This document shows positions 7,010-9,811 of a stretch of 32,420 nucleotides of DNA, one piece after another. The translations under genes were made by a program, and so were the position numbers. Every line of letters begins with the position of its first letter. Position 1 is the first letter of the stretch. A model generated the notes under the pieces. That model ran no database searches and was not told where the DNA came from. It saw only the letters and a program-made list of their open reading frames with translations. Origin of the DNA: Lachnospiraceae bacterium (GTDB lineage Bacteria; Bacillota; Clostridia; Lachnospirales; Lachnospiraceae); assembly GCA_022776445.1 (NCBI GenBank), contig JALFHZ010000184.1, positions 1-32,420 of the forward strand. Reading direction: 5' to 3'.

Positions 7010-7906
7010 ATGAATTGCATTTCAAAAAAACAGGCATATATATGCCTGTTGCTCACTTTTGTACTGTGGGGCAGTCTCTATGTTGCCAGCCAGGTTGTTG
7101 TGCGTGAATTTCCAACCTTTACGGTGTGTTTCATACGTTTCCTTCTTGCATGGCTGTTTTTGACGTTTTTATCACATGTAAAAAGGAATTCTGACAAACC
7201 GGTTTTCCATCCTGACCGCACCTGCCAGAAGTACATATGGATTCTTGGATTCTTTGGATATACAATCTCTGTCGGCATGCAGCTTATGGGAACAAAACTG
7301 GCAGGTTCCACCACTGCGTCCCTGATTAACTCCATAAACCCGGTAGTAATCACGCTTCTGGCAGCGCTTATTTTAAAGGAAAAATTAACCCCTAATAAGA
7401 TAGCAGGTATTCTGTTGGCAGTATTGGGTGTATACCTGATTATTGGGAGCGATATCCATATGGACCCGATCGGCACTATGTTATCCATTGCCGCTGTCAT
7501 CGGCTGGTCACTGACATCTGTTATAAGCAGAACAGCCCTGTCCAAGTATGACTCTCTTCAGATAACCCGGCATGCAATTGGGATTGCTGTTTTATGTAAT
7601 TTTCCGATCTGTCTGATAGAGCTTATTTTGACAGGCATGCCTGCCTCTCCCTCACTGGCTTCTGTTATTTGCCTGCTTTACATGGGAAGCTGTTGCACTG
7701 GTCTTACCTATATTCTTTGGAATAACAGTCTTGCCGTACTTCCGGCCAGTACCTGTTCCTCGTTTTATCCCATTCAGCCGTTGACTTCGGCGCTGCTTGG
7801 AGTCGTACTGTTTCAGGAGAAACTGACAGCTGCATTCCTGACAGGTGCGCTGTTTATCGTCGTTGGTGTTCTGATCAGCCTGATGAATGTAAAACTGCAC
7901 AGATAA
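7010..7906 (+). CDS. DMT/EamA family transporter
   Basis: This is a drug/metabolite transporter superfamily protein of 298 residues with about ten helices built from two EamA repeats. The first repeat includes FVLWGSLYVASQVVVREF and FIRFLLAWL; the second includes GSCCTGLTYILWNNSL and PIQPLTSALLGVVLF, both characteristic of the family. It probably exports a small metabolite, amino acid or drug, but no substrate can be named. An AAGGA ahead of the ATG gives the start. It follows the MATE gene by 33 nt on the same strand, so the two probably form a small export operon. A 15-bp hairpin 28 nt downstream may end the transcript. Confidence 0.92.
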   Translation: MNCISKKQAYICLLLTFVLWGSLYVASQVVVREFPTFTVCFIRFLLAWLFLTFLSHVKRNSDKPVFHPDRTCQKYIWILGFFGYTISVGMQLMGTKLAGSTTASLINSINPVVITLLAALILKEKLTPNKIAGILLAVLGVYLIIGSDIHMDPIGTMLSIAAVIGWSLTSVISRTALSKYDSLQITRHAIGIAVLCNFPICLIELILTGMPASPSLASVICLLYMGSCCTGLTYILWNNSLAVLPASTCSSFYPIQPLTSALLGVVLFQEKLTAAFLTGALFIVVGVLISLMNVKLHR

Positions 7907-7934
7907 TGGACGGAGCTTCGGCTGCGGCATATGG

Positions 7935-7972
7935 AAAGGCGCTGAGAGCGAATAAAAGCTTTCAGCGCCTTT
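7935..7972 (+). terminator. Possible terminator hairpin after the DMT gene
   Basis: A 15-bp stem pairs 7935-7949 with 7958-7972 around an 8-base loop, with GGCGCTGA/TCAGCGCC at its core. The three terminal T residues are inside the stem and no longer T-run follows, so intrinsic termination may be weak. It could instead protect the 3' end of the mRNA. Confidence 0.5.
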
Positions 7973-8046
7973 GTCGGCACAGAATTATTTATCCCATTGT
8001 TGTTAACGATCACTCAAAAAGTGAAGCTTGTCAAGAAAAAACGGGG

Positions 8047-8075
8047 TTTTCAGCCCGGAAGATTTGTGTTATACT
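8047..8075 (+). promoter_or_regulatory. Extended -10 promoter of the mgtE leader
   Basis: TATACT at 8070-8075 is preceded by TG one base upstream (8067-8068), giving an extended -10. A weaker -35, TTTTCA, lies at 8047-8052 with a 17-bp spacer. Transcription would begin near 8082, leaving a 5' leader of about 310 nt before mgtE. Confidence 0.72.
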
Positions 8076-8122
8076 TGATCCGGAACTGAATTGATCTGAA
8101 TGGATTTAAGTGAGGTGAGATT

Positions 8123-8206
8123 ATGGACGACAGTCGAAGTCGAAGTAGGGACAGGGTATTCATAAAAGGTCAGAACCCGTACGACTTTGGGTCGCCCGGA
8201 GTCTGA
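8123..8206 (+). CDS. Putative 27-aa leader peptide upstream of mgtE
   Basis: This small open frame has a strong SD, GAGGTGA (8112-8118), seven nt from GAGG to the ATG. The peptide begins MDDSRSRSRDR, with a run of alternating Ser and Arg, and ends NPYDFGSPGV. Arg codons are CGA, CGA, AGG and AGG. It lies entirely inside the mgtE leader: the antiterminator 5' strand (8149-8161) is within its coding sequence, and its TGA (8204-8206) lies in a local stem (8169-8174 with 8202-8207). This placement suggests that translating ribosomes choose between the two downstream RNA structures, as leader peptides do in attenuation. I do not recognise the peptide. Translation is inferred from the SD, start and stop, and a chance open frame remains possible. 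Confidence 0.55.
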   Translation: MDDSRSRSRDRVFIKGQNPYDFGSPGV

Positions 8207-8244
8207 CTGTATTTTCATGTGACTTTATAAGAATACCATTGTCC
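8149..8244 (+). promoter_or_regulatory. Antiterminator stem in the mgtE leader
   Basis: GGACA (8149-8153) pairs with TGTCC (8240-8244), and GGTATTC (8155-8161) pairs with GAATACC (8231-8237), giving 12 Watson-Crick pairs. An inner hairpin pairs 8169-8174 with 8202-8207. The 3' strand is the same segment that forms the 5' arm of the downstream terminator, so the two structures exclude each other. No T-run follows this stem. Confidence 0.65.
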
Positions 8245-8314
8245 GTTTCTGAAACTGCATGACATCGACGAAAGGCGGGAAAAGCAGGCTACAGGGGATG
8301 ATGGTATTTTTTTG
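8232..8314 (+). terminator. Attenuating terminator in the mgtE leader
   Basis: AATACCATTGTCC (8232-8244) pairs along its whole length with GGATGATGGTATT (8297-8309): 11 Watson-Crick and two G-U pairs. A run of seven T begins inside the last pairs (8308-8314). The loop is long (52 nt) and contains a small hairpin (8245-8255). It competes with the antiterminator for 8232-8244. A further imperfect hairpin, 8275-8296 with 8316-8335, would place this terminator's 3' arm in its loop. Confidence 0.62.
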
Positions 8315-8392
8315 CCTGTAACTGCCTTTCCTGCGGCAAATTTTCAGAATTTGCTGGATTCTGAAGCCAAACAGTAAAGGAGGTATCGGGCA

Positions 8393-9811
8393 ATGAATAC
8401 GAAAATTACGTTGACAAATGAAGCAGCAGTGTGCACCCAGCATCCGGACTACAGAACGGAGATTGCGGAGGTGATCCGAAGCAATCTGACTCCCGGGCGG
8501 ATGAAGGCGAAGCTTCTCGATTATCATGAAAATGATATTGCGGCAGCGATGGAGCTGCTGAAGAAAAATGAGCGGAGCAGGCTGTACAGTATCCTGGATC
8601 CGTTAACACTCGCCGGTATTTTGGAGTATTCCGACAAACGGAAGGAATATCTGGAAGAACTCGGGATCAAGAAGAGAATGGAAGTTCTGTCTTTTCTGGA
8701 AATTCCGACGGTGGCAGAGTATTTTGATCAGCTGGATAAATCTGAGCGAACCATGCTGCTGGATCTGATGGATGAGGATGTCCGGAAGGAACTGATGCTT
8801 CTCACATCTTTTGACGAGGATGAGATCGGAAGCAGGATGGTAACGAATTATATTGCAGTCAGATCCGGTATCAATGTGCGTCAGGCGATGCGGGAACTGA
8901 TTGATCAGGCAGCAGAGAATGACAATATTTCTACGATTTATGTTGTGGATGAAAATGAGACTCTGATTGGAGCCATTGATCTGAAAGACCTGATCATTGC
9001 GAGAGAGAATACGGATCTGGAAGCCATTACTGTGACTTCCTACCCTTATGTATACGCGGAGGAAGAGATTGAAGATTGTATTGAGCGGATTCGGAGCTAT
9101 TCCGAAGATTCTATTCCGGTTCTGGATTCAGATAACCGTCTGAAAGGCGTGCTGACGGCACAGGATATCACAGATCTGATCGATGATGAGATGGGAGATG
9201 ACTATGCAAAGCTGGCAGGTCTGACTGCCGAGGAGGATCTGCAGGAGCCTTTGAAGAAGAGTATCGGAAAGAGGCTGCCCTGGCTGGTCGTTCTGTTTGG
9301 TCTGGGGATGGTCGTGTCTACGGTGGTCGGTCTGTTTGAACATGTGGTGGCGCATCTTGCCCTGATTGTCTGTTTTCAGTCTCTGGTGCTGGATATGGCA
9401 GGCAATGTGGGGACACAGTCCCTGGCAGTTACAATCCGCGTATTGATGGATGAGCAGATCGGAGGCCGACAGAAGCTTGCTTTTGTCGGCAAGGAAGCAC
9501 GGGTAGGACTGATCAACGGAATGATACTTGGAGCTTTGTCCTTCCTGTTTGTCGGACTGTATCTGGTGGCATTGAAGGGACAGTCGCTGCTCATGGCTTT
9601 TTCCGTATCGTTCTGTACCGGTGCCGCGCTGCTGGTTTCGATGCTGCTGTCGAGTATCGCGGGAACAGTCATTCCGATTTTTTTCAAAAAGCTGGATATT
9701 GACCCGGCGGTTGCATCCGGTCCTCTGATTACGACGGTTAACGATCTGGTTGCAGTGATGACCTATTATGGACTGGCATGGATTCTGCTGATTCATATGC
9801 TGAAGCTCTGA
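8393..9811 (+). CDS. mgtE: Magnesium transporter MgtE
   Basis: This is an Mg2+-gated Mg2+ channel of the inner membrane with 472 residues. In order, it has the N-terminal helical MgtE domain, two CBS domains (from about SRMVTNYIAVRSG, and from YPYVYAEEEIEDCI to TAQDITDLID), a plug helix, and a five-helix pore domain starting at PWLVVLFGLGM. Pore motifs include MAGNVGTQSL and GPLITTVNDLVAV, whose Asp matches the ion-selectivity position in the family. GGAGG at 8380-8384 is eight nt from the ATG. The gene is monocistronic: it has its own promoter, a long attenuator-like leader and a strong downstream terminator. In the family, the cytoplasmic domains close the channel at high internal Mg2+; here transcription of the gene also appears to be controlled. 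Confidence 0.96.
   Translation: MNTKITLTNEAAVCTQHPDYRTEIAEVIRSNLTPGRMKAKLLDYHENDIAAAMELLKKNERSRLYSILDPLTLAGILEYSDKRKEYLEELGIKKRMEVLSFLEIPTVAEYFDQLDKSERTMLLDLMDEDVRKELMLLTSFDEDEIGSRMVTNYIAVRSGINVRQAMRELIDQAAENDNISTIYVVDENETLIGAIDLKDLIIARENTDLEAITVTSYPYVYAEEEIEDCIERIRSYSEDSIPVLDSDNRLKGVLTAQDITDLIDDEMGDDYAKLAGLTAEEDLQEPLKKSIGKRLPWLVVLFGLGMVVSTVVGLFEHVVAHLALIVCFQSLVLDMAGNVGTQSLAVTIRVLMDEQIGGRQKLAFVGKEARVGLINGMILGALSFLFVGLYLVALKGQSLLMAFSVSFCTGAALLVSMLLSSIAGTVIPIFFKKLDIDPAVASGPLITTVNDLVAVMTYYGLAWILLIHMLKL

Follow-up and report, generated by a model that had tools for sequence, protein, structure and literature searches.

The mgtE gene of the window, by which is meant the whole 32,420 nt stretch of DNA analysed, is preceded by a leader that, judged from its own sequence and those of its relatives, very probably couples translation of a short upstream open reading frame (uORF) to transcription attenuation of mgtE. 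Leaders of this class are spread over the order to which the window belongs, and the window's own is a divergent one. Sequence comparison supports the uORF, the mutual exclusivity of two predicted stems (A:B and B:C) that share strand B, the position of strand A, a helix at the ribosome binding site (RBS) of the uORF and the tie to one MgtE subfamily; from these we infer ribosomal pausing and the direction of the switch. Mg2+ is probably the signal to which the leader responds, and ribosome drop-off is put forward tentatively as the sensor, by analogy with enterobacterial leader peptides. The full account, an attenuator combined with Mg2+-dependent drop-off as in mgtL and mgtQ, is assigned a probability of roughly 0.6.

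Architecture of the mgtE leader

The components of the leader are listed in Table 1. A first-pass annotation had described a 27-codon frame with a strong Shine-Dalgarno (SD) sequence ahead of mgtE, with the 5' strand of an antiterminator inside it, and both are present. The extended -10 promoter reported there also exists, though with a weak -35, and 0.7 promoter-like sites would be expected by chance against the one found. By eye, the relative L043 has a sequence like this extended -10, TGaTATACT, ahead of its own uORF. The upstream neighbour of the leader is an EamA-family gene ending at 7906, after which a GC-rich inverted repeat (GGCGCTGA...TCAGCGCC, 7935-7972) is likely to be the terminator of the upstream unit. 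The mgtE product has MgtE, CBS and MgtE_N domains, all above the Pfam cut-offs, which places it in the MgtE family, and matches MgtE in PDB 2yvx with an E value of 1.6e-49. A switch at the mgtE RBS between the two states of the leader was sought and none was found, the mean unpaired probabilities being 0.40 and 0.43.

Table 1. Features of the mgtE leader in the window.
Feature	Position	Strand	Description	Basis
Candidate promoter	8047..8075	+	weak -35 TTTTCA, extended -10 TGtTATACT (8067-8075)	weak evidence
uORF Shine-Dalgarno	8112..8118	+	GAGGTGA	sequence; similar SD in relatives
uORF	8123..8206	+	MDDSRSRSRDRVFIKGQNPYDFGSPGV; 27 codons, ATG at 8123, stop codon included	
Conserved uORF start	8123..8146	+	M-D-D-S-R-S-R-S	by-eye alignment with L043 (MDGSSSRSSGRVF) and L044 (MDGSHGRS)
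Strand A	8149..8161	+	putative antiterminator 5' strand, uORF codons 9-13	folds; position conserved in relatives
Possible RBS-sequestering helix H1	8108..8125 with about 8191-8228	+		clear in relatives, not in window
Strand B	8229..8244	+	shared, predicted to pair with A or C	folds
Strand C	8296..8311	+	3' arm of terminator-like hairpin, T-run 8307-8313	folds
mgtE Shine-Dalgarno	8379..8383	+	GGAGG	partly paired in both states
mgtE	8393..9811	+	Mg2+ transporter/channel gene, 472 aa	Pfam MgtE, CBS, MgtE_N

Alternative stems in the window

It had been proposed that one segment of the leader can pair with either of two partners. The exclusive stems are confirmed, and the pair counts, given as 12 and 13, are revised to 13 for A:B (GGACAGGGTATTC with GAATACCATTGTCC; one bulge) and 16 for B:C, at the nearly equal energies of -19.1 and -20.0 kcal/mol, respectively. 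This gives the arrangement looked for in an attenuator, with mutually exclusive antiterminator and terminator stems of which one strand lies within the uORF. Which stem is predicted depends on how far the RNA extends: a 3' end at 8248 gives A:B, and one at 8313 gives B:C (8229-8244 with 8296-8311). Keeping nucleotides 8131-8165 unpaired, to mimic a ribosome in the region of codon 9, prevents A:B in the fold. B:C always wins in full-length folds, even with a ribosome placed at the stop codon, so A:B must act kinetically, by forming first.

The predicted A:B pairing of the window is stronger than any obtained with 200 A regions shuffled by dinucleotide (p=1/201) or with the A regions of 51 other leaders put in the place of its own. 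The leader as a whole folds with z scores of -3.74 (8090-8395) and -2.33 (8090-8316). The loop of the B:C hairpin is structured and approximately 50 nt long, and the hairpin was missed by a simple terminator scan in which loops of 3-8 nt were allowed.

Distribution of the uORF and its association with mgtE

Among 61 genomes searched with the DNA, G043, which belongs to a different family of the order, has a 53 nt match of 85% identity that encompasses the SD and the start of the uORF (E 4.4e-10), and mgtE follows the matching leader stretch there too. Searching 392 genomes of the order for mgtE itself gave 73 hits in one subfamily, with at least 48% identity, well apart from the other MgtE among the matches listed, most of which are near 25-32%. 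Upstream regions were taken for 70 of the 73 (those of G639, G550:C138 and G682 being left out), and one further locus, L091, was dropped as it has almost no upstream DNA, leaving 69. The best SD-bearing uORF of each region was scored with a profile of uORF codons 2-10 built from 13 motifs of the same set. A uORF was recognised in 43 of the 69 regions: 30 score above the best of 350 shuffled regions, and 13 were accepted by eye on the basis of SD, place and partial motif. The latter include the window (score 4.6), L043 (1.0) and L044 (-5.9), all below the shuffle maximum of 7.3 and accepted on place, SD and mutual DNA similarity. The remaining 26 regions have no recognised uORF; a scan of 20 of these found no leader family, only tRNAs.

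The uORF-bearing regions are spread over four families of the order (f1, f8, f11 and f17), with frame, SD and Asp codons conserved across the relatives. The consensus start is M-D-x-x-D-S-x-G-R-S; in a by-eye alignment the start in the window is shorter than this, M-D-D-S-R-S-R-S, and that of L044 reads M-D-G-S-H-G-R-S, and the window and its two nearest relatives are without D5.

A strict pattern, ATGGAYARNNNNGAYAGYNNNGGGCGA, which the window itself does not match, was sought as an exact match in 84,980 genomes and found at 55 places. An SD was identified by eye at 51 of these, all in Clostridia groups, in genera that include Roseburia, Anaerobutyricum, Coprococcus and Pseudobutyrivibrio. At 50 of the 51, mgtE starts 114-398 nt after the uORF start (tblastn with the window MgtE, E<=1.5e-9); the remaining one (L164) is cut off by the end of the locus, and the same contig, as L096, has mgtE. 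The four places without an SD have no mgtE. Hence the strict form of the uORF was seen before no gene but mgtE, with 50 of 51 preceding it and one cut off.

Two other searches were set aside. A short-peptide search of 397 family genomes at E<=1 gave 29 weak matches besides the window, the best of them at E 0.06, and a first pattern search matched in seven of 392 genomes, three being mgtE leaders (the window, G043 and G647) and four having, as far as read, no mgtE behind them. Past the mgtE leader of one locus, a TwoAYGGAY RNA (RF01731, 148.9 bits; L092:903-1075) was found, encoded on the other strand. In the literature searched, consisting of openly licensed PMC papers, no description of the class was found and the motif peptide strings matched no paper, an earlier description elsewhere being possible.

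Alternative pairing across relatives

The distinct leaders, 42 found by mgtE homology and 39 by pattern, number 81, and were reduced to 52 representatives less than 72% alike. A hairpin followed by a T-run, chosen regardless of strand A, was found in 46 representatives and in none of the other six. In these 46 leaders the native A:B pairing is stronger than that with swapped A regions (-11.8 versus -8.6, p=1.0e-6), as it is in the 37 whose T-run hairpin has an energy of -9 or lower (-12.4 versus -8.8 kcal/mol, p=2.0e-6), where 17 natives rank in the top three of 52 and five are worse than the swap median. The difference is also found in the 24 leaders obtained by mgtE homology alone (p=3.7e-4, or p=7e-4 when the window is removed). 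An earlier terminator heuristic, which often selected doubtful hairpins (57 of 81 leaders with one; 18 at p<=0.05), was replaced.

Only 18 nt windows whose start lies 0-15 nt from the codon for the conserved Arg have the excess of A:B complementarity, which is best at +9 (p=4e-5, uncorrected); farther downstream, a few windows differ, weakly and in the opposite direction. This location just behind the Arg codon would place strand A beneath the front of a ribosome that is translating the conserved codons. The letters of A and B vary by lineage, for instance GACGAGACATT with AATGTCATCGTC in Pseudobutyrivibrio. The first-pass annotation had named an Rfam search and a comparison of homologues as ways to check its reading: there was no Rfam hit, and since the uORF recurs and A:B complementarity exceeds the swap control, the outcomes that it had set against itself did not arise. 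The observation on the mgtE leader is confirmed as a whole, and the interpretation placed upon it is supported.

The relatives also appear to share a helix in which the SD and start of the uORF pair with its end (-20.4 versus -15.6 for swaps, p=2.4e-9, 52 leaders). This ranks in the top three in 21 of the 52, whilst the window, at rank 20 of 51, is no better than swap. By-eye counting in 18 Pseudobutyrivibrio leaders gave AACAGC/CTGTT in 11, AGCAGC/CTGCT in five and AGTAGC/CTGCT in two, with a coupled change between the arms. The idea that this helix is a general terminator was rejected, since at least four T follow within 7 nt in only 7 of 52, whereas at randomly chosen positions the share is 22.6%; in single leaders such as L065 it is still terminator-like. 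The heptamer TTATGCC is present downstream in 11 of the 52 representatives, where shuffles would give 0.4; it often follows the T-run directly, and also lies behind an unrelated terminator in L088.

Distribution of the M-box and the link to Mg2+

The first-pass annotation stated that the leader is not an M-box, and accordingly nothing reaches the Rfam gathering score in the window, with only noise at E<=10 in 7900-8450; an M-box (RF00380) above gathering score is likewise absent from the genome of the window (G000). In the order, RF00380 was found in 54 of 392 genomes and in 2 of 68 with this MgtE subfamily, apparently the same sample. The comparison of 2/68 with 52/324 gives p=0.003 in a Fisher test that ignores kinship and depends on strict filters, the 324 including three further subfamily genomes.

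One genome, G693, has a tandem leader before a single mgtE of the subfamily (L070, G693:C22): first an M-box (locus index 1030-1192) followed by a terminator-like hairpin of its own, then a uORF, accepted by eye, that comes with a separate set of strands A, B and C; mgtE begins at about 1450. The tie to Mg2+ that this gives concerns the mgtE gene and not sensing by the uORF. In G328, the M-box serves the other MgtE. A further M-box in G693 (L167, G693:C121:12222-12378) lies upstream of a 314 aa frame that by eye has a CorA-type look. Some species of genera g21 and g287 have the uORF and subfamily mgtE (G043; G712, G710, G725, G309, G666), and others of the same genera (G467; G727) have an M-box and no subfamily mgtE among the matches listed.

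Conservation of the peptide and its codons

The ungapped form of the uORF is represented by 22 sequences, picked by a pattern requiring D/E2, D/G5, S/G/H6 and R/Q/H9; within this selection, D2 is present in 21 and D5 in 20, and the window uORF has its own early acidic residues, D2 and D3. Certain codons are nearly fixed among the representatives: Gly8 is GGG in 15 of 18, Arg9 is CGA in 17 of 18 and Ser10 is AGT in 12 of 13. In the general codon use of the window and of 51 loci, respectively, CGA makes up 5.8% and 9.1% of Arg codons, GGG 13.1% and 7.3% of Gly codons and AGT 12.7% and 14.5% of Ser codons. From these alignments, both the identity of the peptide and that of its codons seem to be held. 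The N-terminal motif with its rare codons, the RBS helix in relatives, the MgtE subfamily tie and the tandem M-box leader all go beyond the first-pass annotation.

Proposed mechanism and alternatives

When free, strand A would pair with B and so keep the B:C terminator from forming. A ribosome detained at the conserved codons (approximately 8-10 of the consensus, 6-8 in the window) would cover A, the terminator would form and mgtE would be off. As mgtE encodes a protein that imports Mg2+, low Mg2+ is the condition under which A would be expected to be free: under shortage, the acidic N-terminal nascent chain and slow codons would cause the ribosome to drop off within the first codons, leaving A to pair with B before C is made, and transcription would read through into mgtE. 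In relatives, the helix between the RBS and the end of the uORF may shut the RBS once the ribosome is gone. This direction, proposed in the first-pass annotation, is consistent with the position of A. As a counterpoint to drop-off, one or two acidic residues are weak by the standard of published Escherichia coli cases. More speculatively, the Lachnospirales might have a ribosome-borne Mg2+ sensor independent of mgtL and mgtQ, in which the ten-residue start M-D-x-x-D-S-x-G-R-S, with its rare GGG-CGA pair, would hold replete ribosomes over A and shed starved ones, and which would largely have replaced the M-box in lineages with this MgtE subfamily.

A rather unlikely alternative is Mg2+-dependent arrest, whereby ample Mg2+ would stall the ribosome near Gly8-Arg9 over A, turning mgtE off, and at low Mg2+ it would run to the stop codon, uncovering A and covering the anti-RBS segment, turning mgtE on. 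The conserved residues and codons do end just before A, the fixed rare GGG-CGA pair suits a pause and the anti-RBS segment is located where the uORF ends; however, 4 of the 22 representatives have Gln or His in place of Arg9.

Synonymous positions of codons 3, 6, 8, 9 and 10 are unusually fixed, which implies that the RNA letters matter too and could reflect a new Mg2+ aptamer whose conserved bases include an ATG by chance, translation being unneeded. This we consider improbable, as the codons for Asp2 (GAC 11, GAT 10) and Asp5 (GAC 12, GAT 8) vary in the 22 representatives, which speaks for coding. Similarly, ATG is the start codon of 32 and GTG of 10 among the 42 distinct uORFs that mgtE homology yielded, and CGA occurs within codons 5-13 in frame in 35 of the 42, against 1 and 12 in the other frames. 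RNAalifold found no consensus structure in 22 leaders over -24 to +42, nor any in shuffled columns, and there was no Rfam match in the 20 uORF loci scanned of the 43.

Fixed rare codons would also suit attenuation in which the uORF reports a shortage of charged tRNA (Arg, Ser, Asp or Cys) rather than Mg2+. The odds of this are lower still, since stalling at an Arg codon would leave the ribosome over A and so switch mgtE off, and a Mg2+ transporter, and no biosynthesis gene, lies downstream in 50 of 50 resolved cases. Finally, an unconserved small frame beside coincidental hairpins is hardly credible despite the poor match of the window uORF to the class profile, being already contradicted by the 85% identity over 53 nt in an mgtE leader of another family, the 50 pattern places before mgtE, the swap control and the position of A.

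Comparison with known systems

Like the leader proposed here, the M-box (ykoK, RF00380) precedes Mg2+ transporter genes including mgtE and acts on a terminator; it differs in being an aptamer that needs no translation, and is absent from the window and rare with this MgtE subfamily. In Mycobacterium tuberculosis an M-box controls a uORF, according to an excerpt of PMC12810186. Another candidate leader element before mgtE is the SRC-65-1 motif of Thioalkalivibrio, which the excerpted text of PMC11109978 describes from that genus only, as a structured RNA holding the mgtE start codon and with no mention of a uORF; this lead was set aside, being from another organism. The part of the same paper on the Corynebacterium ilvB uORF describes, as here, a uORF with a terminator and antiterminator, but there the codons are those of the regulated amino acids and stalling favours read-through, whereas masking of A would here favour termination.

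Two further parallels are enterobacterial; the sequence of the window uORF looks unrelated to those of MgtL and MgtQ. The mgtL frame of mgtA, in Escherichia coli and Salmonella, is likewise a uORF with early acidic residues before a Mg2+ transporter gene, and in the passages available from PMC11282234 its EPDP causes ribosome drop-off at low Mg2+, which allows transcription. It differs in its Rho-dependent termination, EPDP motif and P-type ATPase, where the Clostridia have an intrinsic-type terminator, D-S-x-G-R with rare codons, and mgtE. The mgtQ frame of Salmonella mgtCBRU, as portrayed in the portion of PMC8092293 available, is also a short uORF whose second and fifth residues are acidic (D2 and D5 in the present consensus), with alternative stems that switch; Asp2 and Glu5 are needed for ribosome destabilisation, but it has eight codons, is intergenic and controls the translation of mgtB, not transcription. 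In the literature searched, leader-peptide sensing of Mg2+ is shown in enterobacteria. If the present account is true, a uORF class before mgtE in gut Clostridia would mean that the principle arose more than once, here with an intrinsic terminator, and its short fixed motif would offer a clean target for learning how Mg2+ shortage destabilises or releases a Gram-positive ribosome.
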